The position numbers and the translations under genes are program-made. From a virus, in the IMG/VR virus record IMGVR_UViG_3300013126_003589, positions 1-23,028 of that record: 23,028 bases of DNA; one strand, written 5' to 3'. Each line of letters starts with the position of its first letter. The stretch's first letter is position 1. Below the pieces are notes generated by a model, which had not been told where the DNA came from, searched no databases, and worked only from the letters and a program-made list of their open reading frames with translations. Positions 1 through 19,137 of the stretch are shown one piece after another.

Positions 1-300
1 ATTGAATGATGCAATTATTCGAGTATAATCTGGTAAATATTCTAGTTTAACATCTGCTTTATCATAAGTAATAAGAGGAAATAAATCTGATGAAATTCTG
101 TATGTATGATTGTGGTCAGCACAATATTTAATATAGTGATATGTGGTAAGCATATTATTAAGTATGCGTGAAGAAAGGGTAGCAAGTGCTTCTTTTCTAT
201 CCATCGCAGAGAAACGAGCATAAGTCATTGTATTGAACTTGATGGGTTCTTCTTTCTCTGCTAGAGATAATACAATACAACAAACTCCTTTTCTACTCAT
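1..300 (-). CDS. UV-damage endonuclease (UvdE/UvsE family), N-terminal part, cut by window edge
   Basis: The reading frame is open from an ATG at 300 down to base 1, giving the first 100 residues of a longer protein. The segment containing YRISSDLFPLIT, preceded by a region in which Leu and Asn recur before an H-x-Y-I-K-Y-C stretch, matches the start of the UvdE TIM-barrel nuclease, where the 'YRISS...P' strand follows the helix that counts out N-x-x-x-L. Family members nick DNA 5' of UV photoproducts and start ATP-independent excision repair. The catalytic metal-binding His, Glu and Asp residues lie further along and are outside the window, so activity cannot be judged. A TTGACT/TAAGAT promoter stands directly upstream, with its -10 ending 6 nt before the ATG. 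Family assignment rests on one strong motif and the order of elements. Confidence 0.8.
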   Translation of the reverse strand, partial: MSRKGVCCIVLSLAEKEEPIKFNTMTYARFSAMDRKEALATLSSRILNNMLTTYHYIKYCADHNHTYRISSDLFPLITYDKADVKLEYLPDYTRIIASFN

Positions 301-306
301 AATACT

Positions 307-335
307 ATCTTAATACAACCTACAAGAATAGTCAA
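307..335 (-). promoter_or_regulatory. Sigma70-type promoter of the UvdE gene, leaderless spacing
   Basis: On the minus strand, TTGACT (335-330), a 17-bp spacer and TAAGAT (312-307) are followed by exactly 6 nt and then the ATG at 300. Standard spacing would place the transcript start on the A of the start codon. Confidence 0.6.
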
Positions 336-345
336 GCTATTATAA

Positions 346-522
346 CTATCTGTAAATATATGTGGATAAACCATTTTGTTTTTTTAATTCTTTTTTAATC
401 AACGATTTATCTTTTTCCTCTGACCATTTTATACTATCAAAGTTTTCCTTAAAACTATGAGAGAAACAATTTCTTGGTTTATCTCCTTTTCCAGCTCCTT
501 TATTTGGCGTTTTATCATTCAC
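346..522 (-). CDS. Small phage protein of 58 residues (GKGDKPR type), GTG start
   Basis: The frame runs from GTG at 522 to TAG at 346. An in-frame TAA lies a few codons upstream and no ATG is available, so GTG is the start. A clear Shine-Dalgarno sequence AAGGAG sits at about 536-531, eight bases before it, one of the few strong ribosome sites in this block. The product begins V/M-NDKTPNKGAGKGDKPRN and is very basic, with a lysine-rich C-terminal half. Short proteins starting with a GxGKGDKPR-like motif are common in large environmental phages; I know of no assigned function. The gene start lies inside the 29-bp repeat array (500-631), so its first codons are repeat sequence. It lies between the UvdE-like gene and the 171-residue gene, on the same strand. 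Confidence 0.7.
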   Translation of the reverse strand: MNDKTPNKGAGKGDKPRNCFSHSFKENFDSIKWSEEKDKSLIKKELKKQNGLSTYIYR

Positions 523-631
523 AAATATGTCTCCTTATTTGGCGTTTTTGTGTTCGCAAATATGATTGCTTATTTGCGAAAATCCTGTTAGCAAATATGA
601 TATTATTTGGGATTTTTTCATTCACAAATAT
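500..631. repeat. Four tandem 29-bp repeats with inverted-repeat ends
   Basis: Units are at 500-528, 535-563, 570-598 and 603-631, each exactly 29 bp, separated by 6, 6 and 4 bp. Plus-strand consensus is TTATTTG, 15 variable bases, then CAAATAT. The ends ATTTG/CAAAT are complementary, so each unit can form a small stem or a dyad-symmetric site. Units 1 and 4 share CATTCACAAATAT; units 2 and 3 end in GCAAATAT. The array covers the stop codon of the 618-1133 gene (unit 4) and the start codon of the 58-residue gene (unit 1); the Shine-Dalgarno of the latter falls mainly in a spacer. I found no further copy in the window. Confidence 0.9.
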
Positions 632-1133
632 CATTTGTTAATCTCCAATCCACTCCCTCTGCTATTCTTTCCAAAGGCCAATATTTAAAATATCCTTTAT
701 CCTTTAAATACATCGTGGCTTTATTTAGCTTTTCTAAATTAAAAAGGAGTATAATTCCGGCTTCTTCAAAATGAGTAGATTGCCCATTTAGAGTTTCTTT
801 TTCTTCTGGATGATCTACTATTATAATATAATTATCTTTCATAAGACTTTTATTTTTATTATAAGCATAAACAATTAATTTATTATTGTTGATTTCTTTA
901 TGATCAAAAAGCAAAACACAAACATCTTTTTCTTTTAATTTCGGTAAGCATAGGTTTATTTCTTGGTCAAGATTTGACCAGTCAACAAAAGAGATATGGA
1001 TTTTATTATTTAATCTAGCTTTTTTTGCGAATGGACATAAAGACCAACCGCCAAGATTTTTATTTGGTGCTTCTAAAATATTTTCCATCCAATATTCAAG
1101 CCTTTTTAAGATTTTAGATTTATCTTGAATCAT
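618..1133 (-). CDS. Hypothetical protein, 171 aa, with a LCPFA motif
   Basis: Function not recognised. The protein starts with a basic helical stretch and has GGWSLCPFAKKA at about residues 28-39, followed by alternating strands and charged helices (a fold of about five beta strands is likely, e.g. DVCVLLFDH and NYIIIVDH). The CPFA motif after a helix recalls the start of DUF1415-type proteins (LNLCPFA), but the rest is not close enough to claim membership. There is no signal peptide or membrane segment. It begins 9 bases beyond the end of tRNA-Ser on the same strand, and no separate promoter is visible, so it is probably read through from the strong tRNA-Ser promoter. Its stop codon lies within the last unit of the 29-bp repeat array. 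The ATG at 1133 is the only good start. Confidence 0.65.
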   Translation of the reverse strand: MIQDKSKILKRLEYWMENILEAPNKNLGGWSLCPFAKKARLNNKIHISFVDWSNLDQEINLCLPKLKEKDVCVLLFDHKEINNNKLIVYAYNKNKSLMKDNYIIIVDHPEEKETLNGQSTHFEEAGIILLFNLEKLNKATMYLKDKGYFKYWPLERIAEGVDWRLTNDICE

Positions 1134-1142
1134 AAATTTTAT

Positions 1143-1229
1143 CGGTGCGAGTAGGATTCGAACCCACGGATGGTTTTACCCATCGAGAGTTTAGTAAACT
1201 CCTGCTTTAGACCACTCAGCCATCGCACC
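1143..1229 (-). tRNA. tRNA-Ser with apparent anticodon ACU (reads AGU)
   Basis: An 87-nt class II tRNA. The acceptor GGTGCGA pairs with TCGCACC; the D stem is GCT/AGC; the anticodon stem GGAGT/ACTCT encloses the loop TTACTAA, giving anticodon ACT; a long variable stem GATGG/CCATC follows; the T arm is GTGGG-TTCGAAT-CCTAC. The discriminator is G, and CCA is not encoded. The long variable arm and the AGN-type anticodon make it serine. Bacterial serine tRNAs for AGY normally carry GCU, so A at position 34 is odd. Confidence 0.93.
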
Positions 1230-1240
1230 ATTATATAAGT

Positions 1241-1269: not shown

Positions 1270-1277
1270 AATTTAAA

Positions 1278-1306
1278 TTGACAGGATTATAATAAAGTCA
1301 TATGAT
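1278..1306 (+). promoter_or_regulatory. Sigma70-type promoter of the 2OG oxygenase gene, leaderless spacing
   Basis: TTGACA (1278-1283), a 17-bp spacer and TATGAT (1301-1306) are followed by 6 nt and the ATG at 1313. No Shine-Dalgarno is present. The predicted transcript starts at the A of the ATG. Confidence 0.7.
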
Positions 1307-1312
1307 ATATTC

Positions 1313-1945
1313 ATGGGAGAATTTAATTATATTTTCAGTCCATTTTTTTGGAAAACTCACGTAGTAGAAAATCAGGAAATTTTAGATAGATGTTTATATA
1401 AAATAGATAATTATTCAGATCAAAACCCAGTAATCACCCCTAAAGATTGGGAATGTTCCATACATAGCAGTTTTCAAACTAATGATCCTAACATGAAATT
1501 AGATACTCCTTGGTTAAATGCAATCTATTCTAAATATGTTAGTATATTTTTAGATGAATTTTTTGATCGGCAAGTCACCGCTAAAATTTTTGATCCTTGG
1601 TACAATGTTTTTTCTCAATATCAATTCCAAGAACCTCATGCCCATTTTCCTAATGATTTCTCGTTAGTGCACTATGTTTTATTTGATGAGAAAGAACATA
1701 TTCCAACTACATTCATGAATCCAAATCCTATTGCGGCAGAAGCTCAAGCTTCATTTAGAAAGCCATTATTTGATAAAATTAATAAGAAAGACCCTGCAAA
1801 ATCTTTTTATATGACTCATTATACTCCAATAGAAATCTTTCAAGGAGATTTAATTATATTTCCATCTTCATTGAGTCATTTTGTAAAATATAACCAGTCC
1901 AGTAAGAAACGCATAACTTTTACTCTAAATATTGAGATAATTTAA
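1313..1945 (+). CDS. 2OG-Fe(II) oxygenase family protein
   Basis: This 210-residue protein has the layout of the small 2-oxoglutarate/Fe(II) dioxygenases that are frequent in T4-like and cyanobacterial phages. A Trp-Tyr-Asn strand (about 96-98) leads to EPHAHFPNDFSLVHYV (107-122), which should supply the first metal ligands. GDLIIFPSSLSHFV (178-191) carries the distal His189, and Arg200 in KKRITFTLNI fits the residue that binds the 2-oxoglutarate carboxylate. In place of a plain HxD the first motif reads H-A-H with Asp115 four residues later, so the exact ligands are uncertain. Such enzymes hydroxylate proteins, nucleic acids or small molecules; the substrate here is unknown. It is the only plus-strand gene in the first 13.6 kb, has its own promoter, and ends 2 bp from the convergent carbamoyltransferase gene. 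Confidence 0.82.
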   Translation: MGEFNYIFSPFFWKTHVVENQEILDRCLYKIDNYSDQNPVITPKDWECSIHSSFQTNDPNMKLDTPWLNAIYSKYVSIFLDEFFDRQVTAKIFDPWYNVFSQYQFQEPHAHFPNDFSLVHYVLFDEKEHIPTTFMNPNPIAAEAQASFRKPLFDKINKKDPAKSFYMTHYTPIEIFQGDLIIFPSSLSHFVKYNQSSKKRITFTLNIEII

Positions 1946-5295: not shown

Positions 5296-5477
5296 TTCTT
5301 TTTCTTTCTTTTAGGTTTTTTTACATATTTCCAAATCTTGCCTTCTGTATCTAAATCGCAACTCCAAAGCATCACTATTCTATAAACTGAATATCCAAAA
5401 CCATTACCCCAAACCATAGTGGTCCTACTAATAATATCACCCACATAATATAAGAACAAGGAGACCAAGTGCTTCAT
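5292..5477 (-). CDS. Small phage protein of 61 aa with basic tail, first gene of operon
   Basis: It begins with a hydrophobic stretch (MKHLVSLFLYYVGDII) and later has YSVYRIVMLWSCDLDTEGKIW followed by a poly-basic end (VKKPKRKKKK). Short proteins with a 'LFY..GD', 'YSVYNKLMLWS.DLD' and lysine-rich tail pattern are widespread in large tailed phages, with no known role; the hydrophobic start and basic tail suggest contact with the membrane. It has a perfect TTGACA promoter with leaderless spacing, and it heads the operon that ends in the carbamoyltransferase gene. The ATG at 5477 is supported by that promoter position. Confidence 0.7.
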   Translation of the reverse strand: MKHLVSLFLYYVGDIISRTTMVWGNGFGYSVYRIVMLWSCDLDTEGKIWKYVKKPKRKKKK

Positions 5478-5483
5478 ATATAA

Positions 5484-5512
5484 ATACTATCAGATAGTAA
5501 AAATATTGTCAA
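5484..5512 (-). promoter_or_regulatory. Promoter of the carbamoyltransferase operon, leaderless spacing, with overlapping dyad
   Basis: On the minus strand, TTGACA (5512-5507), a 17-bp spacer and TAGTAT (5489-5484) are followed by 6 nt and the ATG at 5477. A 15-bp near-perfect dyad, TACTATC-A-GATAGTA (5485-5499), covers most of the -10 and the adjacent spacer. This is where a repressor would block polymerase. Confidence 0.68.
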
Positions 5513-5602: not shown

Positions 5603-5631
5603 ATAATAATATTATTTTTTAATTTTGTCAA
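5603..5631 (-). promoter_or_regulatory. Promoter of tRNA-Thr
   Basis: On the minus strand, TTGACA (5631-5626), a 17-bp spacer and TATTAT (5608-5603) lie 9 nt before the tRNA 5' end. It overlaps the 3' end of the 66-residue gene. A TATAAT three bases further on could also serve, with a 20-bp spacer. Confidence 0.68.
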
Positions 5632-5812
5632 GTATATATTCTTCTGCTACCCATTGAATATAATCTAAATTTGTATGTATCTGATAGCTAACTTGATAAT
5701 CCCAATTTAAATTAGCTGGTCTTATATTGATAATCTCTCCCATAACATTTTCATTTTGATACTTGCAAAAGAAATGAACAAAATCTTCAACTTTATATTT
5801 AGGGTTTTTCAC
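5612..5812 (-). CDS. Hypothetical protein, 66 aa, GTG start
   Basis: A short acidic-to-neutral protein (KYKVEDFVHFFCKYQNENVMGEIINI, then YQVSYQI, then WVAEEYILDKI). The layout of five short strands, with the usual 'G-x-I-x-x-I' turn and a closing 'W-V-x-E-x-x-I', resembles small SH3-like barrels in phage and bacterial hypothetical proteins. No function is known. GTG at 5812 is the only start that fits. It is preceded by GTGTAAATA six bases upstream and has no Shine-Dalgarno. tRNA-Thr follows on the same strand. Confidence 0.6.
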   Translation of the reverse strand: MKNPKYKVEDFVHFFCKYQNENVMGEIINIRPANLNWDYQVSYQIHTNLDYIQWVAEEYILDKIKK

Positions 5813-5818
5813 TACTTA

Positions 5819-5827
5819 TATTTACAC
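5819..5827 (-). promoter_or_regulatory. GTGTAAATA motif, possible phage promoter
   Basis: The 9-mer ends 6 nt before the GTG start of the 66-residue gene. It differs by one base from the T4 late core TATAAATA (as TGTAAATA). No -35 partner is visible 16-18 bp upstream. Confidence 0.45.
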
Positions 5828-5893: not shown

Positions 5894-6163
5894 TTAAAGT
5901 TTGCGAGGCTTTTTACTTTTAGCGATAAAATCATTGATCTCTTTCTCTATAAGAGAAAGATTATTAAGTTCTAATTCGCTTTTTTGCAACAACGCTTTAA
6001 TCTTATTGGTAGTCTCCACGATTTCTTTTTCTGTTTCTGGAGACCAAGGCATGTCTTTTAAATCGTCCATTTTTGAAAATTCTTTATTTGCAAGTTCTTC
6101 TAAAAATGATGAAGAATCAATCGCTAACAAAGCTTTTTGCACTAAATCTTGCTCTTTACTCAT
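5894..6163 (-). CDS. Hypothetical helical protein, 89 aa
   Basis: The start chosen is the ATG at 6163 (MSKEQDLVQKA), which overlaps the upstream stop in the sequence ATGAGTAA; a longer TTG-started frame back to 6190 is less likely. The protein is almost wholly alpha-helical and highly charged. After an N-terminal helix there is KMDDLKDMPWSPETEKEI, then a long amphipathic helix (IVETTNKIKALLQKSELELN) that could form a coiled coil. No motif identifies a function. It is the second gene of the pair driven by the GTGTAAATA site at 6383-6391. The 80 bp between it and the 66-residue gene carry only that gene's GTGTAAATA element. Confidence 0.6.
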   Translation of the reverse strand: MSKEQDLVQKALLAIDSSSFLEELANKEFSKMDDLKDMPWSPETEKEIVETTNKIKALLQKSELELNNLSLIEKEINDFIAKSKKPRKL

Positions 6164-6377
6164 CTTTTTTAATTTTTGGGGCAAACTCAACTAATACTTG
6201 TTTGCCATGAACTTCAAAATATCTGAGCGAAAATCCTTTATGATCTAAAATATTGCAAAGTTCATCAAAATATTTCTTATCAACATAAGCGCCAATTACG
6301 CGATCTTCGTGGACGCTCAAGCCATACTGATTAGTAAACTCTGAGCATAAAGATAATGCTTCTTCGGTATTACTCAT
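6156..6377 (-). CDS. Hypothetical protein, 73 aa
   Basis: The product (MSNTEEALSLCSEFTNQYGLS...) is a small alpha/beta protein with an apparent beta-strand core (EDRVIGAYVDKKYFDEL, then LRYFEVHGKQVLVEFAP). A longer frame starts at 6398, but the ATG at 6377 is preferred: GTGTAAATA stands five bases before it, as it does at other starts in this window, and the seven extra residues would be encoded across that element. No family recognised. The gene overlaps the following helical protein gene by 8 bp. Confidence 0.58.
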   Translation of the reverse strand: MSNTEEALSLCSEFTNQYGLSVHEDRVIGAYVDKKYFDELCNILDHKGFSLRYFEVHGKQVLVEFAPKIKKDE

Positions 6378-6382
6378 AATAT

Positions 6383-6391
6383 TATTTACAC
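6383..6391 (-). promoter_or_regulatory. GTGTAAATA motif, possible phage promoter
   Basis: The same 9-mer as at 5819-5827, here 5 nt before the preferred ATG at 6377. No TTGACA-like hexamer lies at the matching upstream distance. Confidence 0.45.
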
Positions 6392-6447
6392 TATTCATTT
6401 TGCTTTAAAGTTAATAGTGGTGATATAAAATAAATTTTTCATTTTAT

Positions 6448-6859: not shown

Positions 6860-7172
6860 TTGTAATATACTCCACCAAATTTTTCCATTCGTTTTTAGTG
6901 TGCCCAAACATGCTTGCGTGAGCGATATAATAAGTATTATATCTCCACCAGCCTTCTTCCAAAATATCTGGATCAATATCTAATTCCTTGTACATTTCTA
7001 ATAATTCTTTTGTTGGACTTAAATTTTCTGAAGGTTTTGGAATAGTTTTAACTTTCTCTAGATAAGCATCTATAAGGTTAATCAGCTTCTGATCATTTTC
7101 TAATTTACCATAATACTTGGCTAATTGAAATAATCTTGGTCTTGTTTGTTCTCTATTTCGAACTTGATACAT
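6846..7172 (-). CDS. Hypothetical protein, 108 aa
   Basis: An all-helical soluble protein. It starts MYQVRNREQTRPRLFQLAKYYGKL, with two further helices and a C-terminal Trp/Tyr-rich part (EEGWWRYNTYYIAHASMFGHTKNEW). The aromatic cluster suggests a binding surface. No family recognised. Its start overlaps the end of the acyl carrier protein gene by 20 bp, so the two are translated together and it could be a partner or substrate-loading protein for the carrier; that is inference from position only. Confidence 0.6.
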   Translation of the reverse strand: MYQVRNREQTRPRLFQLAKYYGKLENDQKLINLIDAYLEKVKTIPKPSENLSPTKELLEMYKELDIDPDILEEGWWRYNTYYIAHASMFGHTKNEWKNLVEYITNGEK

Positions 7173-7431
7173 CGTTAATTTTTTTATTTAAAAAATCTAT
7201 AAATTCGCCAAAAGTTTTCATGCTGGTTTTCATTTCCTCGATTTGCTTGGCATTTTGAATTAACCATATATTGTATTTATCCTCTACTTCAGAAGCTATT
7301 GATAGAAGTGCGAATGAATCTAAATTCAAATCTTCCAAAGAAGTATCATTATCAATTTGAATACCTCTCTTATCTTTCAAGAGTTCATTTTTTATAAGAG
7401 ATTTAATTTCTTCTGGATTTACTGTTTTCAT
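7153..7431 (-). CDS. Acyl carrier protein
   Basis: The 92-residue product has the four-helix carrier fold with the phosphopantetheine site DLNLDSFALLSIASEVEDKY; Ser39 in LDSF is the residue that takes the 4'-phosphopantetheine arm. The usual site is DSL; here Phe replaces Leu. The N-terminal helix (EEIKSLIKNELL) and the acidic helix II (SEVEDKYNI) are typical of type II fatty-acid and polyketide carriers or peptidyl carriers. No ketosynthase, acyltransferase or adenylation domain is in the window, so the cargo is unknown. It has its own strong promoter with a perfect -10 hexamer. A holo-ACP synthase lies about 2.7 kb away (10077-10385), so the phage supplies both carrier and activating enzyme. 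The start at 7431 fits family length. Confidence 0.92.
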   Translation of the reverse strand: MKTVNPEEIKSLIKNELLKDKRGIQIDNDTSLEDLNLDSFALLSIASEVEDKYNIWLIQNAKQIEEMKTSMKTFGEFIDFLNKKINDVSSSK

Positions 7432-7437
7432 ATTAAT

Positions 7438-7465
7438 ATTATATCAAATACTTTGCTTATGTCCA
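7438..7465 (-). promoter_or_regulatory. Promoter of the acyl carrier protein gene, leaderless spacing
   Basis: On the minus strand, TGGACA (7465-7460), a 16-bp spacer and a perfect TATAAT (7443-7438) are followed by 6 nt and the ATG at 7431. It overlaps the 3' end of the adenylosuccinate synthetase gene. Confidence 0.7.
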
Positions 7466-8436: not shown

Positions 8437-8651
8437 TCGCAATCGTAAACTCTGCTTGGAGCCCTGATATCAAAAATATTTACATTCTGTTCTGTTTTTT
8501 CATTAATTACAGAAAGCGTTTCGTGGTCAACTACCTTATTAACTATTCCACAATAACCTTCTTCTAATAGCGAGTTAGTGACTATAAAAACTCTTTTTCC
8601 TATCATTCTCTTTAAGATGTTGCTTTTGATTTTCTTTAGTGTTGCATCCAT
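8433..8651 (-). CDS. Hypothetical protein, 72 aa
   Basis: A small basic protein whose core (MIGKRVFIVTNSLLEEGYCGIVNKVVDHETLSVI) looks like a short SH3/KOW-type barrel: strand, loop, G-x-V-x-x-V strand, then 'LSV' strand. The end PSRVYD is polar. The function is unknown. It is co-transcribed with, and overlaps by 4 bp, the adenylosuccinate synthetase gene. The start is supported by the promoter spacing directly upstream. Confidence 0.6.
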   Translation of the reverse strand: MDATLKKIKSNILKRMIGKRVFIVTNSLLEEGYCGIVNKVVDHETLSVINEKTEQNVNIFDIRAPSRVYDCE

Positions 8652-8657
8652 AATTAT

Positions 8658-8686
8658 ATATTAACTCATATTTTAACAAAAATCAA
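8658..8686 (-). promoter_or_regulatory. Promoter of the 72-aa gene and purA, leaderless spacing
   Basis: On the minus strand, TTGATT (8686-8681), a 17-bp spacer and TAATAT (8663-8658) are followed by 6 nt and the ATG at 8651. It lies over the 3' end of the metallophosphoesterase gene. Confidence 0.55.
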
Positions 8687-9338: not shown

Positions 9339-9343
9339 ATATT

Positions 9344-10385: not shown

Positions 10386-10386
10386 T

Positions 10387-11493: not shown

Positions 11494-11494
11494 G

Positions 11495-11803: not shown

Positions 11804-12137
11804 GTTTAGACAATATGTTTACTATCTTATAGTATACCAGACTTGATATATAAATTAAAGCAAAAAATTTATATCCTACAAAAAAAGCTGTAATAATCGA
11901 AAACCAAAAATTTATACAAAATGGGCATGTTGCCAATCTAATAAAGAAAGAATCATAGTTTAATTTTAAAAAATTAATAAATCCAATATCTAGCCCTGCT
12001 TTACAGGAGTCATCATATTTTTTGATAATTTTATTTATAAAAGGAAAATATTTAAAATACTCTATAAAGGCGTTGGTTTTAAACCAGATCAATAATGCTA
12101 ATGTATTAAAAAAAGAAAATATAAGTGCGTCTATCAT
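11796..12137 (-). CDS. Small membrane protein with CPFC motif (DUF1360-like)
   Basis: A 113-residue protein with a hydrophobic N-terminal segment (DALIFSFFNTLALLIWF), a polar loop, then RLATCPFCINFWFSIITAFFVGYKFFALIYI, which gives one or two more membrane segments. The arrangement L-x-T-C-x-x-C-x-x-F-W leading directly into a membrane helix is typical of DUF1360-type membrane proteins of bacteria and phages. Their role is not known; the two Cys residues at the membrane edge could bind metal or form a disulfide. It overlaps its neighbours on both sides and follows the exported repeat protein in the transcript. Confidence 0.65.
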   Translation of the reverse strand: MIDALIFSFFNTLALLIWFKTNAFIEYFKYFPFINKIIKKYDDSCKAGLDIGFINFLKLNYDSFFIRLATCPFCINFWFSIITAFFVGYKFFALIYISSLVYYKIVNILSKHE

Positions 12138-12655
12138 TATTCTGGCCTCTCTGGTGAGTATGATTGTTTTCCATCAGATCTTAAAGATTTTGAATACGTA
12201 TAACTATTGTTATTCATAGCTTCTTGTTCGCTGGTGGCTCTAGTATTTATACTATTTTCTTTTTCGCTAATCCGATTATAATTTACATTCTGTGCTTCTA
12301 TTTCTTGTTGATTATTTTTTCTCCAATCTAGATTTGATATATATCTATCTGGAAACTGTCTTGGATATACGCTATTCGTTGATGTTGTCCTGTAGACTCC
12401 CCATTGTTGAGAGCTAGTATAGGTATTTTGTTTGCGGACTATATAAGTAGGAAAAATTCTATGAAAAATGGTATTAGTGTTTAAACTATCATATAGCCAA
12501 TATTCGTTCTCATTCATTTTTCTTATAGTCATTGAAGGAAATTGTCGTGGATATACGCTATTAGTTCCAAATGTTCTTGTAATTGTAGCCTCTTCTCTTT
12601 GAGCGAAAGAATAGGATGTTGAAAAGAAAATAGTAAGTATTAAGACTTTAATCAT
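12137..12655 (-). CDS. Exported protein with three internal TNSVYPRQFP-type repeats
   Basis: From the ATG at 12655 the product is 172 residues and begins with a clear Sec signal peptide (MIKVLILTIFFSTSYSFAQ; cleavage likely after SFA). AAAGGAG is a strong ribosome site just upstream, which decides this start over a TTG at 12679. The mature part holds three imperfect repeats: GTNSVYPRQFPSMTI, NTNTIFHRIFPTYIV and STNSVYPRQFPDRYI, spaced about 30-35 residues. The rest is rich in Asn, Ser, Gln and Tyr and looks disordered, including the C-terminus (YSKSLRSDGKQSYSPERP). No family recognised. A phage protein exported by Sec could act in the periplasm or cell surface, for example in entry exclusion or lysis; this is inference. 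It overlaps the dUTPase-like gene by 8 bp. Confidence 0.72.
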   Translation of the reverse strand: MIKVLILTIFFSTSYSFAQREEATITRTFGTNSVYPRQFPSMTIRKMNENEYWLYDSLNTNTIFHRIFPTYIVRKQNTYTSSQQWGVYRTTSTNSVYPRQFPDRYISNLDWRKNNQQEIEAQNVNYNRISEKENSINTRATSEQEAMNNNSYTYSKSLRSDGKQSYSPERPE

Positions 12656-13082
12656 TCGACTCCTTTCCATCGAAATCAAATAAAACGATTGGGTTAATTA
12701 TTATATTCGCTATCTTATCTCCGATGTATATATCTATTCTAGTTCTCTCGCCTAGAAATCTTTCATTGTCTGTCATCATGTAAGGACTCTTTGGCATATT
12801 ACCATTAGTTACCATAATAAGCAATTCTTTTTTTTCTTGGGGAAGAATGATATCTTGAAAAGCGTAAAGTCCATTTCTAATATAATTTTCTTTTCTTGGA
12901 AGAATTAACCCTATATATCCCTCTGGTATTTCTATTTCTATAAATGTCCTAATTAGTTTTCTTTCTCCTGGAGATATACAACATCTTTCTCCGCTAGAAA
13001 TACTATATATAGAATTCTTAAATTCATTCGTAGGTTTTTTACCCTTGTCGTATAAAGACTTAAATTTAATTAAAGGATTCAT
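12648..13082 (-). CDS. dUTPase-fold protein with degenerate catalytic motifs
   Basis: The 144-residue protein has the length and strand order of trimeric dUTPase. CISPGERKLIRTFIEIEIPEGYIGLILPR (35-63) matches the family segment 'L-x-P-G-E-x-x-L-V-x-T-G-I-x-I-x-I-P-x-G-Y-x-G', and YIGDKIANIIINPI (119-132) matches 'x-x-G-D-R-I-A-Q-L-I-I-x-P-V'. The catalytic motifs are altered. The AGYDL Asp motif is replaced by SIYSISSGE. PRSG with its Ser reads PRKE (62-65). The motif 3 'G-x-I-D-x-D-Y-R-G-E' loop reads FQDIILPQEKKE and lacks the Asp/Tyr pair. dUTPase activity is thus doubtful. Possible alternatives are a structural, regulatory or Stl/Orf20-like moonlighting role, or a related dCTP/dUMP-binding activity. 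It overlaps the dCMP deaminase gene by 17 bp. Confidence 0.75.
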   Translation of the reverse strand: MNPLIKFKSLYDKGKKPTNEFKNSIYSISSGERCCISPGERKLIRTFIEIEIPEGYIGLILPRKENYIRNGLYAFQDIILPQEKKELLIMVTNGNMPKSPYMMTDNERFLGERTRIDIYIGDKIANIIINPIVLFDFDGKESND

Positions 13083-13485
13083 ATCGAATTAAATCTATTT
13101 TATGAAATTCAAATATTTTTTTACAATTATTATCTTTTTCATATTCTTCCATATATATTACTTTTGATATATTTGTTGAAGCTATAATATTGGCGCAACT
13201 TGAACAAGGAAGTAATGTTACAGCTAATAAATTCGCCTTATTTACATCAACATTAGATAAAGCGTTTACCTCCGCATGAATAATATAGTTTCGTCTATTA
13301 TCTCGATCATTCCAAAATGTTTCGTTTTCGGATTGACCAGCTCTTATTCCATTATAACCTACGCCTAATACCTTACCATTTTCATCTAAAATACAAGCTC
13401 CAACTTTTTTGTGTGGATCTTCTGATCTTTTAGATGCAACTATAGCAATCTGCATTGCCATATCTTCAAAAGAGATACGTTTCAT
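13066..13485 (-). CDS. Deoxycytidylate (dCMP) deaminase
   Basis: The 139-residue zinc enzyme converts dCMP to dUMP, the precursor of dTMP. Zinc-binding and catalytic residues are in place: HAEVNAL (His70, Glu72) and LLPCSSCANII (Cys94, Cys97). The N-terminal helix AMQIAIVASKRSEDPHKKVGACILD and GVGYNGIRAG (42-50) are typical of the dCMP deaminase family. The insertion typical of ComE/T4 Cd allosteric types is short. It is the first gene of the minus-strand run and faces the plus-strand genes across a 117-bp intergenic region. No thymidylate synthase is in the window. No obvious Shine-Dalgarno sequence or clear promoter hexamer pair was found upstream. Confidence 0.92.
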   Translation of the reverse strand: MKRISFEDMAMQIAIVASKRSEDPHKKVGACILDENGKVLGVGYNGIRAGQSENETFWNDRDNRRNYIIHAEVNALSNVDVNKANLLAVTLLPCSSCANIIASTNISKVIYMEEYEKDNNCKKIFEFHKIDLIRYESFN

Positions 13486-13543
13486 TTTGATTTCACTGAT
13501 AAACCAATAAACACGAAAGTCGCCATGATTAAGATTATCGTCA

Positions 13544-13563
13544 TATAAATATTATGGCATAAT
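13544..13563 (+). promoter_or_regulatory. TATAAATA late-type core and adjoining dyad in divergent intergenic region
   Basis: TATAAATA (13544-13551) is an exact match to the T4 late promoter core and points to the gene at 13603, about 51 bp downstream. A dyad ATTATG-G-CATAAT (13551-13563) follows directly. In such AT-rich DNA an 8-mer match alone is weak evidence. Confidence 0.4.
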
Positions 13564-13565
13564 TT

Positions 13566-13594
13566 TTGGAAAAAGGCAAGTATTTTTATATCAT
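13566..13594 (+). promoter_or_regulatory. Possible sigma70-type promoter of the 138-aa gene
   Basis: TTGGAA (13566-13571), a 17-bp spacer and TATCAT (13589-13594) are followed by 8 nt and the ATG at 13603. It is a weaker match than the others, but again predicts a transcript starting within a base or two of the ATG. Confidence 0.4.
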
Positions 13595-13602
13595 ATATAT
13601 GT

Positions 13603-14019
13603 ATGACTATAGTCGAGGCGGCTAATAAGCTATTAGAGCATTTTACTAAAAAAGATTCTTTTTCAATGGATACGGATTATATTGATTTAATGCAGTTATC
13701 TGAAACACCAGAGGAAAACAAGGTGACTTTTATTTTAGCTCTTGAAGATTTAGAGAAGAATGACTTTATTAAAAGTTATACTCAAGGAAAAAAGAAAATA
13801 TATATATTAAAAAAACCACTAAACTCTTTTGAACAAAATATAAATGTTGGAGGTTTTACTTGTAATATGATAGCCAAAGTCATTAATGATTTTTGTGATA
13901 AAATAAAAGACAAGAGAGATTACTGCGATTCTAGAGGTATTACAGAAAAAGATATAAGAAATCTAATGTTTATTGCTACTATGCAAAGTGAAAACGGTAA
14001 TGAAACTAAAGTGGAATAG
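13603..14019 (+). CDS. Hypothetical phage protein, 138 aa, winged-helix-like N-terminus
   Basis: The first 70 residues (MTIVEAANKLLEHF... LALEDLEKNDFIKSY... KKKIYILKK) show helices followed by a two-strand wing, as in winged-helix DNA-binding domains. The last half is helical (FTCNMIAKVINDFCDKIKD, then ITEKDIRNLMFIAT). The start MTIVEAANKLLEHFTKK resembles short uncharacterised proteins of T4-like phages. It is first in the plus-strand block, next to the dNMP kinase gene, which has its own promoter starting one base after this gene's stop codon. Regulator function is a guess from fold only. Confidence 0.6.
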   Translation: MTIVEAANKLLEHFTKKDSFSMDTDYIDLMQLSETPEENKVTFILALEDLEKNDFIKSYTQGKKKIYILKKPLNSFEQNINVGGFTCNMIAKVINDFCDKIKDKRDYCDSRGITEKDIRNLMFIATMQSENGNETKVE

Positions 14020-14020
14020 C

Positions 14021-14049
14021 TTGACTAACAAATAAATATAAGATAAAAT
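14021..14049 (+). promoter_or_regulatory. Sigma70-type promoter of the dNMP kinase gene, leaderless spacing
   Basis: TTGACT (14021-14026), a 17-bp spacer and TAAAAT (14044-14049) are followed by 6 nt and the ATG at 14056. There is no Shine-Dalgarno. The P-loop near the protein's N-terminus leaves little freedom in the start choice. Confidence 0.7.
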
Positions 14050-14055
14050 CTGTTA

Positions 14056-14649
14056 ATGCTTAATAAAATCATTGGCGTATCTGGTTGTGCAAGATCAGGA
14101 AAAGATACTTTTTTTAGTATATTAAAAAAATATATACCAGAAATAGAGCAAGTAGCCTTAGCTCAAGAACTCAAAAAAGATTTAGATGAGTTCGTAAAAT
14201 CAAAGATTGGAATATCTGTATTTACAGATGAAACAAAAGATAAAAGTTTAATTCGTGGTTTAATGGTAGAATATGGAAAAATCAAAAGACAACAAACAGA
14301 AGGCACATACTGGACTTGTTTAGCTCAAAAGAAAATTAACGATATATTAAGAAGTGATAAAATTCCAGTTGTTACAGATGTAAGATATGATATCTATCCA
14401 AAAGATGAGTTCTTTTGGTTAAAAGAGCAAAATGCTGGAGTATTAGTTCATATAACACGAATGTTCGGAGACGATGAGATTCCTCCAGCAAATGAAGAAG
14501 AGTCTATCAATAATGAAAAATTAAAAACTAAAGCGGATTATTCTATAAAATGGAATACTGTTGATCCTACTCAAAACGCCATCCAAGATCATTCGCTTAA
14601 TGAAATAGTTAAAGGATTTGTAAAATTTTATGATAAATTTAGAAAATAA
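14056..14649 (+). CDS. Deoxynucleoside monophosphate kinase (T4 gp1-like)
   Basis: A 197-residue P-loop kinase. IIGVSGCARSGKDTFFSIL (5-23) holds the Walker A GCARSGKDT, a form usual for phage dNMP kinases of the T4 gene 1 type and for dephospho-CoA kinase relatives. Later elements are KIPVVTDVRYDIYPKDEFFWL (a strand carrying the Asp-Val-Arg motif found in gp1-like kinases), LVHITR, and a KADYSIKWNT near the end. The enzyme would phosphorylate dNMPs freed from host DNA or made de novo, so that they can be used for phage replication. It follows the 138-residue gene and overlaps the sigma-like gene by 20 bp. The substrate range (T4 gp1 handles dTMP, dGMP and hydroxymethyl-dCMP) cannot be read from sequence. 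Confidence 0.82.
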   Translation: MLNKIIGVSGCARSGKDTFFSILKKYIPEIEQVALAQELKKDLDEFVKSKIGISVFTDETKDKSLIRGLMVEYGKIKRQQTEGTYWTCLAQKKINDILRSDKIPVVTDVRYDIYPKDEFFWLKEQNAGVLVHITRMFGDDEIPPANEEESINNEKLKTKADYSIKWNTVDPTQNAIQDHSLNEIVKGFVKFYDKFRK

Positions 14650-15229
14650 AACCGATCTACAACTTATTCGTAGAGTTCAAAACAAAAACTGCGAAGATAG
14701 TTTAAAAATATTAATCGCAAGACACAGTCCTTTATGTTATAAAATCTATAAAAAATATGTTCCATCTTTTAATGTAAAAAATATAGATTTGAATGAAATT
14801 TATCAACAAAAAGATTATGTTATATATAAAACTATTATGTCTTTTAAATCTAATAAAAAAGTTAAATTTTCAACATGGTTAGGGAATCAAATCAGATATC
14901 AATGTTTGAACGCTATAAATAAAAAAGAAGACATAATCTACTTAGAACAAAGCGAACTTCAGTATCTTATAGACAAAAATGTAGAAGATAAGACAAGTAA
15001 TTTAGTTGAACTAAAAGAGTATATAATAACTTTATTAGACCAATTGAGAGACGATAGAATATCTAAGATATTTAATATGAGATATTTTCAAAATACATCT
15101 AGTCAAACTTGGACAAAAATTGGTAAAAAAATGAAAATGAGCACTCAAAATGCGATTAATCTTCATAATAAAGGCGTGCAAATTTTAAAAAATAAATTGA
15201 CAAGTAAGGATTTGTTTGATAAAATATAA
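14630..15229 (+). CDS. Sigma-70-like RNA polymerase sigma factor
   Basis: This 199-residue protein has the layout of a small two-domain sigma factor. DLQLIRRVQNKNCEDSLKILIARHSPLCYKIYKKYV (about 9-44) corresponds to regions 1.2-2.1. KTIMSFKSNKKVKFSTWLGNQIRYQCLNAI (about 67-96) matches region 2.2-2.4, where F-x-x-x-x-x-x-K-F-S-T-W/Y is a hallmark. The C-terminal part (ISKIFNMRYFQNTSSQTWTKIGKKMKMSTQNAINLHNKGVQILKN) is a region 4-like helix-turn-helix. It should direct host polymerase to phage promoters, perhaps of middle or late genes. A second sigma-like gene lies at 19134-19811. A TTGACA/TAAAAT promoter for the next gene lies inside its 3' end. Confidence 0.75.
   Translation: MINLENKTDLQLIRRVQNKNCEDSLKILIARHSPLCYKIYKKYVPSFNVKNIDLNEIYQQKDYVIYKTIMSFKSNKKVKFSTWLGNQIRYQCLNAINKKEDIIYLEQSELQYLIDKNVEDKTSNLVELKEYIITLLDQLRDDRISKIFNMRYFQNTSSQTWTKIGKKMKMSTQNAINLHNKGVQILKNKLTSKDLFDKI
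15197..15225 (+). promoter_or_regulatory. Strong sigma70-type promoter plus Shine-Dalgarno for the 106-aa gene
   Basis: TTGACA (15197-15202), a 17-bp spacer and TAAAAT (15220-15225) lie within the sigma-like gene. The expected transcript start is about 15232. A Shine-Dalgarno AAGGAGA (15234-15240) follows, 11 nt before the ATG at 15252. This unit is leadered, unlike the others with 6-nt spacing. Confidence 0.7.
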
Positions 15230-15251
15230 AGATAAGGAGAACAAAATTAAA

Positions 15252-15572
15252 ATGAGTGAAAATAACAAAACTGATTGGTCAAAGCTAGAGCTAGGTGCTC
15301 TTTGGAAGAGAAAGAGCGCAACTCAAACATATCTAAGCGGATATATTAAGGTTGATGAACTTGGCACTCAAAAGGAAGTCAAAGTAGTCGTCTTCTCAAA
15401 TAAGAGCAAGAAGGATAACGAGAAGGCTCCAGATTTTAGAGTATATCTATCTGAACCAAGAAATAGCAATTCTGACGCTGCTGCAAAAACTCAAGTAAAG
15501 AGTCAAGCAAAGCCAGTTCAGAAGAAGGCTACTGTATCAGTATCTGAGTCTGAAGACGAAGATATTCTGTGA
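15252..15572 (+). CDS. Small beta-rich phage protein, possible nucleic-acid-binding protein
   Basis: The 106-residue product (from MSENNKTDWSKLELGALWKRKS) has a beta-rich N-terminal two thirds: GALWKRKSATQTYLSGYIKVDELG, then EVKVVVFSNKSKK, then PDFRVYLSEPR. The pattern 'LWKRKS...YLSG.I....VVVF.NK.K....PD.RVYLS' is a recurrent small phage/bacterial domain whose role is not known. The C-terminal tail is Ala/Lys/Gln-rich and ends acidic (SESEDEDIL), as in single-stranded DNA-binding proteins, so an SSB-like role is possible. Own promoter and ribosome site, and codons slightly richer in G and C than those of neighbours, suggest high expression. An upstream ATG at 15216 would add 12 residues but lies before the predicted transcript start. 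The acidic end overlaps the next gene's GTG. Confidence 0.7.
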   Translation: MSENNKTDWSKLELGALWKRKSATQTYLSGYIKVDELGTQKEVKVVVFSNKSKKDNEKAPDFRVYLSEPRNSNSDAAAKTQVKSQAKPVQKKATVSVSESEDEDIL

Positions 15573-16657
15573 GTAAAAATCTAGCATTACATTTACCTGT
15601 CAATGCTGTAAGTTTCGGGCAGGTTTCAGTTGGTATTCTTAGAGAATTCTACAGAAGAAAGCTGGAACCTTGCCTGTTTCTTATTGGAGATCAAGCAGAT
15701 TTGAGCGTCTACAACTCCGATTCTGATTTTACAAAATGGATACAAAATGGTATAAATAAAGCTCTTAAAGATCATAAAAGATCTGATCCTATTTTTAAAT
15801 TATGGCACTTGAATGGCTCTTTAGAGAGCTATAGTGATAGACAAATATTATTGACATTCTATGAATTAGACTCTCCAACTCCACAAGAGATAAATATTAT
15901 TAAGAATAATAGTAAAGTGTTAGTCTCTTCTGAATATACCAAAGAAGTTTTTATAAATGCAGGATTAAATAACGTAGAATATCTCCCTTTGGCATTTGAT
16001 AAAGATAGTTTCCATGTAAAAAATAATGCTAATATTCTAAATGATAGAATTACTTTTAATGTTGTGGGTAAGCTAGAACGCAGGAAGCATCATGCTAAAA
16101 TTATTAAATCTTGGGCAGAAAAGTATGGAAATAATAAAAATTATTACTTAAATTGTTCTATATTTAATCATTTTATTAAAATGGAAGATCAGCAAAAATT
16201 ACTAGCTGCACTTTTAGATAATAAAAAATATTTTAATATAAATTTTTTAGGGTTTATGCCTAACAATAGTATCTATAATGATTATTTAAATAGTGGAGAT
16301 ATTATAATTGGTATGAGTGGTGGAGAGGGATGGGGCTTACCAGAATTTAATAGTCTATGCCTTGGCAAACATGGAGTCATTCTAAATGCTCACGCCTATA
16401 AAGGTTGGGCAAATGAAAAAAATTCTATACTTGTTAACCCCAATAGCAAAGCAGAGGCTTATGATGGAATGTTCTTTAAAAAAGGTTCTCCATTCAATCA
16501 AGGGAATATTTTTGATTTTGATTATAATGAATTTCTAAAAGCTTGCGATATAGCTATTGAAAAAGTTAAAATAAGTAGAGTTAATCAAGAAGGCTTAGAG
16601 CTTCAGAAAAAATTTACATTTCAAAAAATGGTAGATACAATATTAAGTTATGCCTGA
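15569..16657 (+). CDS. Glycosyltransferase, GT4-like (GT-B fold)
   Basis: A 362-residue protein beginning with GTG (SKNLALHLPVNAVSFGQVSVGILREF) that overlaps the preceding stop. The N-terminal Rossmann half shows NLALHLPVN and a Gly-Gln turn, then VLVSSEYTKEVFINAG. The C-terminal half starts with ITFNVVGKLERRKHH, the usual 'G+L...K' junction, and near residue 250 has SGGEGWGLPEFNSL, which is the E-x7-E-like donor-binding loop of family 4 enzymes (GxGEGFGLPxLEAMA). HGVILNAHAYKGWANEKNSILVNP follows. It should transfer a sugar from a nucleotide donor; candidates for the acceptor are phage DNA, structural proteins or a host surface glycan. No nucleotide-sugar synthesis gene is in view. The 3' end overlaps the next gene by 8 bp. 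Confidence 0.85.
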   Translation: MSKNLALHLPVNAVSFGQVSVGILREFYRRKLEPCLFLIGDQADLSVYNSDSDFTKWIQNGINKALKDHKRSDPIFKLWHLNGSLESYSDRQILLTFYELDSPTPQEINIIKNNSKVLVSSEYTKEVFINAGLNNVEYLPLAFDKDSFHVKNNANILNDRITFNVVGKLERRKHHAKIIKSWAEKYGNNKNYYLNCSIFNHFIKMEDQQKLLAALLDNKKYFNINFLGFMPNNSIYNDYLNSGDIIIGMSGGEGWGLPEFNSLCLGKHGVILNAHAYKGWANEKNSILVNPNSKAEAYDGMFFKKGSPFNQGNIFDFDYNEFLKACDIAIEKVKISRVNQEGLELQKKFTFQKMVDTILSYA

Positions 16658-17000
16658 GTATCTTTATCAACATCCCAAAACTGAAGAAGTAAAAAGCATT
16701 ATTCAAAGCATTCATGATAAGCATGAATATATTGATGAAAAAGGGGTGACTTGGAATAGAATATTTACTGTTCCTCAAATGGGAGTTGATACAAAAATGG
16801 ATGCGGGAACAGACTCTAAATCTTTCTCAGAAAAGACTAAAAATAAAAGAGGAAGTTTAGGAGACCTTTTCGATCAGAGTAAAGAATTATCTGAGGCTAG
16901 GAAAAAAATGTACGGAAAAGACCCAGTCAAAAAGAAATATTGGGATGACTGGAGCAAAAAGCGTAAAGGTAAAAAACATCCAGAGATGTTTAAAGATTAA
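16650..17000 (+). CDS. FmdB-like small phage protein without the zinc cysteines
   Basis: The 116-residue product starts MPEYLYQHPKTEEVKSIIQSIHDKHEYIDEKGVTWNRIFTVP, which follows the pattern of FmdB-type zinc-ribbon proteins (MPxYEYxCxxC...E...). The Cys pairs are absent; the first is replaced by H-P-K-T, a variant common in T4-like phages. The rest is polar and helical with a strongly basic end (KKKYWDDWSKKRKGKKHPEMF). The function is unknown; a nucleic-acid or regulator role is possible because of the charge. It ends close to the convergent 87-residue gene, and a hairpin spans the junction. Confidence 0.65.
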   Translation: MPEYLYQHPKTEEVKSIIQSIHDKHEYIDEKGVTWNRIFTVPQMGVDTKMDAGTDSKSFSEKTKNKRGSLGDLFDQSKELSEARKKMYGKDPVKKKYWDDWSKKRKGKKHPEMFKD

Positions 17001-17266: not shown

Positions 17267-17904
17267 TCTTTTACCTCCTCTATTTTATACTCATAGTTAT
17301 CATTGTCTTCTGTTGCCCACTTTGGACAATTCTCTACTGTATAAATCTGTGTATTTACTTTTCTTTCAATTAAATTTTGTCCTTGTTTTGTAGCAAAATT
17401 AGGATCATATAATCTAATTCGATTATTAGGTTGAATAGCAAAATTACCATTATCCAGTTGAATTACATGACCACATTTATGTTGATCTGGATGCTCACTA
17501 AAACCGAAGTTAATTTCATTAAAATCACTATGAGCCCAATCAAGAGTAAATAAATAAGTGCCAAGATATTCTTTACCACTTCTCGATAAGAATTTCATTT
17601 TTTTATTTTGAAATAAAGAGAATTTTGTAACTGCTATATGATAACTAAAACTATCCCATAGTTCTAATTCATGTAAATCTTGTTCTTGTATTCCTTCTTT
17701 TGTGCAAAACGCGCTAATTGGTGCATGCCACCATATTCCGCCATCTTCCATTAAAAAATTAAAAAGCGGAACTTGACTTGGTAAACTAGTTACTCCAAAA
17801 ATAAGACAAGGAAAATATTTATCATGTGAGTCTTTTTGATTTCTTAAGTAATTTCCACGAACAAAACATTCAATTGGAGGGATATTAGCGTTCAAAAATG
17901 CCAT
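17263..17904 (-). CDS. Hypothetical phage protein, 213 aa (IPPIECFVRGNYL type)
   Basis: The start (NANIPPIECFVRGNYL) and the following 'PCLIFGVTSLPSQVPLFNFLMEDGGIWWHAPISAFC' match a pattern seen in uncharacterised phage and bacterial proteins of 200-250 residues (IPPIECYVRxxYLYD... FGVxSI...G...M...GA.....PISAF). Function is unknown. Later parts are beta-rich, with LFTLDWAH, HKCGHVIQLDNGNFAIQPNNRIRLYDP. The protein is soluble. No Shine-Dalgarno is present. It shares a dyad-symmetric intergenic region (17905-17960) with the PhoH gene, in which GTGTAAATA faces each gene. Confidence 0.65.
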   Translation of the reverse strand: MAFLNANIPPIECFVRGNYLRNQKDSHDKYFPCLIFGVTSLPSQVPLFNFLMEDGGIWWHAPISAFCTKEGIQEQDLHELELWDSFSYHIAVTKFSLFQNKKMKFLSRSGKEYLGTYLFTLDWAHSDFNEINFGFSEHPDQHKCGHVIQLDNGNFAIQPNNRIRLYDPNFATKQGQNLIERKVNTQIYTVENCPKWATEDNDNYEYKIEEVKE

Positions 17905-17912
17905 TGTTAATT

Positions 17913-17945
17913 TATTTACACATTATTTAATATTCAGTGTAAATA
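17913..17945. promoter_or_regulatory. Divergent GTGTAAATA inverted repeat between two genes
   Basis: TATTTACAC (17913-17921) and GTGTAAATA (17937-17945) are perfect 9-bp complements around a 15-nt AT-rich centre. Read outward, each arm is GTGTAAATA. The minus copy ends 8 nt before the ATG at 17904 and the plus copy 15 nt before the ATG at 17961. It could be two divergent phage promoters or an operator for both genes. No TTGACA-like hexamer lies at the fitting distance. Confidence 0.5.
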
Positions 17946-17960
17946 TCGCTGTAAAGTTTA

Positions 17961-18704
17961 ATGTCTAAAAAACACAAGCAAAAGTCACAAGATAAGTCGC
18001 CAGTTGTTCCTCAAAGAGATAAAATTGAAGGTTTCTTAGATGTTCGTGATCTACAATGGACAGATAATCAAAAAAAATTTATAGAATTAATACAAAATAA
18101 AGAGACAAAAATCGTATTCTGTAAAGGTCCAGCAGGAACCGCTAAAAGCTTATTATCAGTATATTCTGCATTGAAGGCTTTGAACGAGAAGAAAATAGGT
18201 GAAATATTCTATATCCGTAACCCTGTGGAGAGTTCTACGCATAATCTTGGATTTTTAAAAGGGGATTTACATAGCAAGTTAGATCCATATCTACAACCAT
18301 TAATGGATAAATTGCATGAATTATTGCCTAAATCTCAGGTTGAAAGACTGCTTAAAGAAGAAAGAGTCAAAGGATTACCAGTAGGCTTTCTAAGAGGACT
18401 TAGTATTAATGCTAGCTATATTATATGTGATGAAGCTCAAAATTTAAGTATTCATGATCTATTATTAATAACTACCAGAATGGGAAGATTTAGTAAATTA
18501 ATATTAATTGGGGACATAAGACAATCAGATATCAAAAATAGTGGTTTTGAAAATGTATATGATTTATTTGAGGATAAGAAAAGCAAAGATAAAGGTATAC
18601 ATACATTTAAGTTTGGTACAGATGATATTATGAGAAACAATGTGCTTGCTTATATTATTGAAAAGTTTGAAGAATTATCCGCTAAAACCAATACACGCAA
18701 ATAA
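17961..18704 (+). CDS. phoH: PhoH-like ATPase
   Basis: The 247-residue protein is a single P-loop ATPase domain of the PhoH family, very common in marine and other large phages. Walker A is KGPAGTAKS (55-63), in which Ala-Lys-Ser replaces the more usual GKT. The motif YIRNPVESS (84-92) precedes LGFLKGDLHSKLDPYLQPLMDKL (96-118), typical of PhoH. Walker B is YIICDEAQNL (153-162), followed by LILIGDIRQSD, the sensor-like strand. A lysine-rich N-terminal tail of about 20 residues comes before the domain. PhoH proteins bind and hydrolyse ATP and act on RNA in cases studied; the phage role is unsettled. It stands alone downstream of the GTGTAAATA dyad; the next gene has a TATAAT. Confidence 0.93.
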   Translation: MSKKHKQKSQDKSPVVPQRDKIEGFLDVRDLQWTDNQKKFIELIQNKETKIVFCKGPAGTAKSLLSVYSALKALNEKKIGEIFYIRNPVESSTHNLGFLKGDLHSKLDPYLQPLMDKLHELLPKSQVERLLKEERVKGLPVGFLRGLSINASYIICDEAQNLSIHDLLLITTRMGRFSKLILIGDIRQSDIKNSGFENVYDLFEDKKSKDKGIHTFKFGTDDIMRNNVLAYIIEKFEELSAKTNTRK

Positions 18705-18713
18705 ACTTTAAAA

Positions 18714-18743
18714 TTAGAAAAAGATATATTAAAGGTATATAAT
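18714..18743 (+). promoter_or_regulatory. Promoter of zinc-ribbon gene, near-leaderless
   Basis: A perfect TATAAT (18738-18743) ends 7 nt before the ATG at 18751. The best -35 at the correct distance is a poor TTAGAA (18714-18719) with an 18-bp spacer. No Shine-Dalgarno is seen. Confidence 0.5.
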
Positions 18744-18750
18744 TTTACAT

Positions 18751-19137
18751 ATGCCAAAAATATATTGTAGTAACTGTGGGAATGCTATACAATATAGCGA
18801 TATTAAACCTAATTTTTGTCAAAAATGTGGAACTAATTTAGGCTCTGGAAAAACACAAATATCTGCTCAACCACAGATCGAAATCATTCAAGAGACTAAA
18901 CCCAAATTAAACAATTTAAATTGGGATATAGAAATAGAAAAGCCAAAAGGAGTCAAACTCAAAGATCTTGCTAAAGGTGAAAAATCAAATTTTGAACCAA
19001 GACAGAATGATGAGAATACTTCTAAAGAAGAATTTTTAAAACAATTTCAAAAAGAAGCAGGTACTTTACGCAGGGGTAATCAAGATTACCAAGCTTCTGA
19101 TGATGGTTATGATGATGAAGAACCAGAAGATGCGTGA
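18751..19137 (+). CDS. Zinc-ribbon protein, 128 aa
   Basis: It begins MPKIYCSNCGNAIQYSDIKPNFCQKCGTNLG, with Cys6, Cys9, Cys23 and Cys26 forming a zinc ribbon of the type found at the front of many bacterial and phage proteins (YxxCxxCG...FCxxCG). The remainder is low-complexity and charged: Gln-rich, a short Leu/Trp segment (NNLNWDIEIEKPK), then an acidic end (DDGYDDEEPED). The layout suggests a DNA- or protein-binding adaptor, with a flexible linker. Partner unknown; immediately downstream, with a GTGA overlap, is a sigma-like factor with its own Cys cluster, so the two may interact. Position of the ribbon at residue 6 fixes the start. Confidence 0.75.
   Translation: MPKIYCSNCGNAIQYSDIKPNFCQKCGTNLGSGKTQISAQPQIEIIQETKPKLNNLNWDIEIEKPKGVKLKDLAKGEKSNFEPRQNDENTSKEEFLKQFQKEAGTLRRGNQDYQASDDGYDDEEPEDA

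Follow-up and report, generated by a model that had tools for sequence, protein, structure and literature searches.

Predicted leaderless early and late transcripts behind two promoter classes in an uncultivated phage lineage

Background

Among phages, lambda cI and other single genes have mRNAs with the AUG at the 5' end. Phage transcripts have more broadly been called 'often leaderless' (PMC5312081). In host chromosomes, chiefly those of Actinobacteria and Deinococcus-Thermus, so-called TA-led genes carry a TANNNT motif about 12 bp upstream of the start codon and no Shine-Dalgarno (SD) sequence, and are taken to be leaderless (Zheng et al. 2011, PMC3160421). Late promoters of phage T4, which depend on the sigma factor gp55, have a late box, TATAAATA, that occupies positions -13 to -6 (PMC1524935). 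No account of a phage family that systematically makes leaderless transcripts was found in the literature searched. Here we analyze the promoters of IMG/VR virus record IMGVR_UViG_3300013126_003589, taken whole (23,028 bases, 29% GC; hereafter the window), and of its relatives, in which two promoter classes place the ATG of first genes at or just behind the predicted transcription start site.

The reading that we favour, at a probability of roughly 0.8 and from sequence analysis throughout, is that early transcripts (made through host sigma70) and many late transcripts (probably made through a phage sigma factor) are leaderless or nearly so in this lineage. The family resembles TA-led genes in that the -10 element ends about 6 nucleotides (nt) before the start codon above chance, with no SD sequence, but differs in being a phage lineage, at 29-41% GC, and in having a second, late-type promoter. 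With lambda cI and similar cases it would share the AUG at the mRNA 5' end; those are single genes, whereas here the layout recurs over early and late genes.

The window is best read as a member of an uncultivated phage lineage whose gene content is partly T4-like, and the family comprises uncultured bacterial viruses from lakes and oceans. A TerL search of IMG/VR gave 544 confirmed relatives, the best 80 of which were fetched as loci, and larger family records were read (G001, 91 kb; G002, 47 kb; G004, 136.5 kb; G005, 117.5 kb; G007, 162 kb). The window's TerL is less than 30% identical to those of cultured phages among the matches listed, and window positions 9000-16900 gave no nucleotide match to cultured phages.

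Results and discussion

Early promoters in the window

The sequence-only reading of the window had listed eight sigma70-type promoter sites. On re-reading, every hexamer, spacer and distance proved to be as given, and no SD sequence was present at any of the sites (Table 1). The spacing of exactly 6 nt between -10 box and ATG, in which the sites were said to agree, is found at six of them; the exceptions, which that reading had itself mentioned, are 18751 (7 nt) and 13603 (8 nt). Starts further upstream are excluded, because the seven main ATGs are each the earliest possible start (ATG, GTG or TTG) after the upstream stop codon.

At 29% GC, strings resembling TATAAT and TTGACA are ubiquitous, and some will lie 6 nt before an ATG by chance. 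Taken as a whole, promoter-like strings in the window (135) hardly exceed their number in shuffles (120). Such an artefact is contradicted by enrichment that is specific to position: 4 of 32 promoter-like sites in the window (at least 10/12 to consensus) have an ATG that opens an open reading frame (ORF) at exactly 6 nt, where 0.09 are expected (P = 2.3e-6), and the family behaves likewise (see below). The layout is absent from the equally AT-rich control phages phi14:2, phiST and HTVC010P, and the reversed pattern has 0 matches in 797 kb of family DNA. We consider a chance origin hardly credible.

Conservation was assessed where orthologues sufficed, the UvdE, 1313, 5477, 7431 and 8651 sites being left out as they had too few among the loci. 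The dNMP kinase promoter has kept its spacing at 6-7 nt in 12/13 distinct orthologue upstreams, and TATAAT stands 7 nt before the zinc-ribbon gene in 13/14. Before the 13603 gene, relatives have TATAAT at 6-9 nt and a -35 resembling TAGAAA.

The early class across the family

Because the window is the entire record, an excess of the 6-nt spacing beyond the listed sites, which the sequence-only reading had named as its test, was looked for in relatives and is present there. An unbiased scan of 4096 hexamers at 30 distances (122,880 combinations) in 1.02 Mb of non-redundant family DNA found TTGACT 29 nt before ATG 20 times (2.1 expected), TTGACA at the same distance 16 times (1.9 expected) and TATAAT at 6 nt 29 times (6.7 expected); together these make up TTGACN-17-TATAAT-6-ATG. 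Of 43 family promoters scoring at least 11/12 (553 kb), 7 are followed by an ORF-opening ATG at 6 nt, and most other distances each account for roughly one case or less. The distribution has a lower edge, with 34 sites of the sigma70 class at 6 nt and 4 below.

Among TTGAC-TANNNT sites followed within 40 nt by an ORF-opening ATG, 58/102 have it at 5-9 nt in six family records, compared with 8/69 in 15 cultured phages. The stricter TTGAC-N18-TANNNT-N6-ATG occurs 31 times in 797 kb of family DNA vs 7 times in 1.85 Mb of the same 15 phages, and the 6-nt layout is about tenfold denser in the family. Five further family records also show the early class. Genes behind TTGAC promoters in the family include rIIA, rIIB, clamp loader, ligase, helicase, polymerase and dNMP kinase.

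A late-type GTGTAA class

While the sigma70-type early class of the sequence-only reading held up, that reading had overlooked a late-type class with the same property and stronger statistics. GTGTAA-N8-ATG ranks first among the 122,880 hexamer-distance combinations, with 36 occurrences against 1.3 expected; 35 sites of this class have the ATG at 8 nt and 7 below. Sharp lower edges at 6 and 8 nt are what a need to transcribe the complete AUG would produce. In the family GTGTAA precedes genes for tail fibre, baseplate wedge, lipoprotein, PhoH and ribonucleotide reductase, and a longer variant motif, GTGTAAATA, is found before tail, baseplate, PhoH and other genes.

When the GTGTAAATA-type motif is aligned to the T4 late box as TGTAAATA, +1 falls 8 nt after GTGTAA. 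If GTGTAAATA is the counterpart of the T4 late box, +1 would therefore be the A of the ATG in the commonest arrangement. The T4 sequence TATAAATA was also considered as the late box of the family and rejected, as it shows no enrichment before starts, where GTGTAA is enriched instead.

Four GTGTAA sites of the window are given in Table 1. The ORF called from 6398 probably has its real start at 6377, to judge from the motif within its first codons. The PhoH and ferredoxin-like genes are divergent, and the conserved GTGTAAATA between them was first seen by orthologue comparison. A conserved inverted element, TTTACAC...GTGTAAATA, is common to both genes (17904-17961), and their late-type promoters may act together, back to back.

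Sigma factors encoded by the lineage

Both sigma-70-family genes of the window, here called sig1 and sig2, are embedded among genes discussed above: sig1 overlaps the end of the dNMP kinase gene, itself behind a TTGACT promoter, and sig2 is preceded and overlapped by the zinc-ribbon gene. On gene order alone, a cascade from host sigma70 to sig1 to sig2 is possible. The sig2 gene is present in 71 fetched loci of the family (among the best 80 of 544) and had no match in cultured phages. Sigma70 region 2 (PF04542) was detected in 31/31 sig2 members, the window member scoring above the curated cut-off, and the best fold matches of sig2 are sigma factors, at low TM-score. Homology to T4 gp55 was rejected, since hhalign of the sig2 profile against gp55 gave a probability of 0.2%. 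In the middle of sig2, after region 2, lies a conserved Cys-rich insert (CLKCAAAE...C...C..CPLY), which may possibly bind metal.

TAGAAA stands in place of TTGACA before the zinc-ribbon gene (18715-18743) and, in relatives, before the 13603 gene (13566-13594). Such promoters are possibly a separate class read by sig1. As the general -35 of a middle class TAGAAA was set aside and left as a hint: it is kept at two loci, and the peak that it gives elsewhere is small.

Under the leaderless reading, first genes of transcription units would commonly be transcribed from the A of the ATG or from a position a few nt upstream. Before early genes (replication, rIIA/B, nucleotide metabolism), TTGACN-17-TATAAT-6-ATG would be read by host sigma70 holoenzyme, and host polymerase should suffice for this class because the promoters are of ordinary sigma70 consensus. 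A phage sigma factor, most likely sig2, would read GTGTAA[A/T][A/T]A before tail, baseplate and other late-type genes, with the late ATG at +1 (8 nt) or behind a leader no longer than about 10 nt. On these mRNAs, lacking SD sequences, the ribosome (70S or 30S) would probably bind directly at the 5'-terminal or near-terminal AUG, and downstream cistrons would be reached through overlapping stop and start codons or SD sequences.

The base before the ATG as a start-site sign

Bacterial RNA polymerase favours pyrimidines at -1 and purines at +1. In the GTGTAA class the base before the ATG is a pyrimidine in 97% of genes at 8 nt (n=35), in 42% at 9 nt and in 48% at 10-11 nt. The sigma70 class has a pyrimidine there in 74% of genes at 6 nt and in 44% from 10 nt upwards; for operon-internal genes the figure is 41%.

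This signature bears on an account by compaction only, in which promoters are packed to save space, RNA starts lie a few nt upstream or are scattered, and the 6- and 8-nt peaks mark minimum packing; leaders would then be short and translation would proceed from unstructured AT-rich starts, with no leaderless initiation. The genomes are indeed compact, many GTGTAA sites have their ATG at 9-16 nt, and unstructured starts can be translated with no SD sequence (PMC3121790). Against it, the peaks fall at exactly the initiation distances of sigma70 and T4 late promoters, and the pyrimidine frequency drops from 97% to 42% over a single nucleotide. We judge compaction only to be unlikely.

Several observations nevertheless weigh against leaderless transcription as the general rule. 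Genes with an ATG at 9-16 nt after GTGTAA outnumber the 8-nt class, and for part of the GTGTAA set 'ultra-short leader' fits better than 'leaderless'. By strict criteria the two classes cover a minority of first genes, with a GTGTAA promoter at 40/361 and a sigma70-type promoter at 29/361. The pyrimidine frequency is 65% in GTGTAA genes with the ATG at 12-30 nt, so the signature may in part be unspecific to the transcription start, and the purine excess at the predicted +1 of longer-leader GTGTAA genes is weak and suggestive only (p = 0.06). SD sequences occur in 27/361 first genes vs 6.8 in shuffles, and leadered genes, 15252 among them, exist in the family. Finally, the late role of sig2 rests on co-occurrence, because it has no profile similarity to T4 gp55.

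Translation and the host

Between promoter and ATG, 6-8 nt is too short for an SD sequence. Inside operons, SD sequences are found at 99/570 genes vs 26 in shuffles. The sequence-only reading had contrasted leaderless first genes with operon interiors that use overlaps or SD sequences; for the first genes, spacing, lower edge, orthologues and the pyrimidine-A signature point to mRNAs that are leaderless or nearly so.

It had also suggested altered ribosomes. On such an account, phage-modified ribosomes or initiation factors would let leaderless phage mRNAs beat those of the host; leaderless mRNAs do respond to the levels of IF3, S1 and initiator tRNA (PMC9031893), and one family record has a bS21 gene. 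That gene is found in only 1/11 family records and an IF3 homologue in none of the 11, and SD sequences are still used at 15252 and within operons. The suggestion thus found no backing, and we regard it as very improbable.

The host may be one in which leaderless mRNA is translated well. An actinobacterial host, leaderless-rich and marked by WhiB, was considered and dropped, no WhiB being found in the 11 family records. A TerL scan of GTDB contigs gave one relative (L113), which sits in a 77-kb contig binned into a Flavobacteriales metagenome-assembled genome; a Flavobacteriales host was not relied on, because the binning of phage contigs is error-prone and promoters of Bacteroidota differ from TTGACA/TATAAT.

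Occurrence in other phages

The layout had been called unusual for a phage, which is true against cultured model phages and not in general, given its occurrence in IMG/VR contigs and at late promoters of the cultured Pelagibacter phage HTVC008M. In IMG/VR, two scans, for TATAAT with TTGACA and for TATAAT with TTGACT, listed 229 contigs. Among the matches listed, the promoter-to-ATG distance is bimodal: at least 26 lie at 6 nt and at least 11 at 7 nt, with no SD sequence, and a second, broad mode lies at 19-30 nt, mostly SD-like. The base at -1 is a pyrimidine in 88% of the listed matches at 6 nt. Most of the 6-8 nt contigs among the matches listed in the first scan have no protein in common with the window family.

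In HTVC008M, [A/G/T]ATAAATA-N5-ATG is found at 8/15 late-type sites with a nearby start. Five TATAAATA sites lie 5 nt before annotated starts (6267-6282, 7549-7564, 18914-18929, 31119-31134 and 49747-49762, for genes starting at 6280, 7562, 18916 on the minus strand, 31132 and 49760), and the genes behind TATAAATA-N5 include those for baseplate, CsgF, end protector and oxygenase; these late genes are predicted to be leaderless. Like the family, HTVC008M has late promoters that place the ATG at the T4-type +1; unlike the family, its sigma70-type promoters have no 6-nt peak, and no close relationship between the two was found.

T4 itself has N5-ATG at 0/28 late-type sites in the stretches examined, and there no late box lies less than 12 nt from an ATG. 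T4 late promoters resemble those of the family in being a short motif before structural genes, with the same +1 distance if aligned, and both phage groups have rIIA/rIIB, clamp loader and baseplate genes. The family differs in its motif core, GTGTAA, and in that sig2 is not detectably a gp55 homologue. The layout is thus not confined to the window family, yet most cultured phages examined have no peak.

Other features of the window

Genes in the window include those for UvdE, a 2OG oxygenase, carbamoyltransferase, FMN reductase, acyl carrier protein, AcpS and PurA, together with an IMPDH/GMP-reductase-type enzyme, a dUTPase-like protein, dCMP deaminase and dNMP kinase. The two sigma-70-family factors, PhoH, an ERCC4-type nuclease and the start of TerL are also encoded. 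The genes for acyl carrier protein, a short PurA, AcpS and the IMPDH/GMP-reductase-type enzyme cluster at 7153-11493. PurA was considered as PurZ (of a 2-aminoadenine genome) and this was rejected, PurA models scoring 259 vs 98 bits. ARAGORN calls a tRNA-Ser with the unusual anticodon ACT at 1142-1230, and a promoter TTGACT-17-TATAAT ends 10 nt before it.

Table 1. Promoters and sigma factor genes of the window
Feature	Position	Strand	Basis or remark
Promoter TTGACT-17-TAAGAT-6-ATG, UvdE gene (partial, 1-300)	298..335	-	pattern match; UvdE Pfam PF03851 E=2e-8
Promoter TTGACA-17-TATGAT-6-ATG, 2OG-Fe(II) oxygenase gene (1313)	1278..1315	+	pattern match; PF13759, phrog_81
Promoter TTGACA-17-TAGTAT-6-ATG, 61-aa ORF (5477) at head of minus-strand operon	5475..5512	-	pattern match
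Late-type promoter GTGTAA-N9-GTG, 66-aa ORF 5612-5812	5810..5827	-	motif
GTGTAA-N8-ATG inside first codons of ORF listed as 6156-6398	6375..6391	-	motif
Promoter TGGACA-16-TATAAT-6-ATG, acyl-carrier-protein gene (7431)	7429..7465	-	acyl carrier protein by NCBIfam
Promoter TTGATT-17-TAATAT-6-ATG, 72-aa ORF (8651), then PurA gene	8649..8686	-	re-read
Weaker promoter TTGGAA-17-TATCAT-8-ATG (13603)	13566..13605	+	re-read
Promoter TTGACT-17-TAAAAT-6-ATG, dNMP kinase gene (14056)	14021..14058	+	pattern match, orthologues
sig1, sigma-70-family factor	14630..15229	+	TIGR02937 2e-11; profile match to SigA
Contrast promoter TTGACA-17-TAAAAT of 15252, 26-nt leader with AAGGAG SD	15197..15254	+	conserved in relatives
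Late-type promoter GTGTAAATA, ATG 11 nt after GTGTAA, ferredoxin-like gene (phrog_3704)	17902..17921	-	kept in all near relatives
Late-type promoter GTGTAAATA, ATG 18 nt after GTGTAA, PhoH gene	17937..17963	+	GTGTAA kept in most near relatives
Promoter TAGAAA-17-TATAAT-7-ATG, zinc-ribbon gene (18751)	18715..18753	+	re-read, orthologues
sig2, sigma-70-region-2 protein with Cys-rich insert; candidate late sigma	19134..19811	+	profile, fold match

Conclusions

If the leaderless reading is true, gene callers that expect SD sequences misplace starts in these phages, as at 6398 vs 6377 of the window. The GTGTAA motif offers a simple handle on the late genes of an uncultured phage family, and HTVC008M on Pelagibacter HTCC1062 is a cultured system in which late-gene leaderlessness is testable now. 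A wider proposal, which we hold tentatively and think somewhat doubtful, is that leaderless initiation could be a second standard expression mode in much of the uncultured virosphere, which the window family would use both early and late, channelling ribosomes to 5'-end starts. The finding would bear on how phages exploit hosts with little SD use, and on whether infection favours leaderless initiation.

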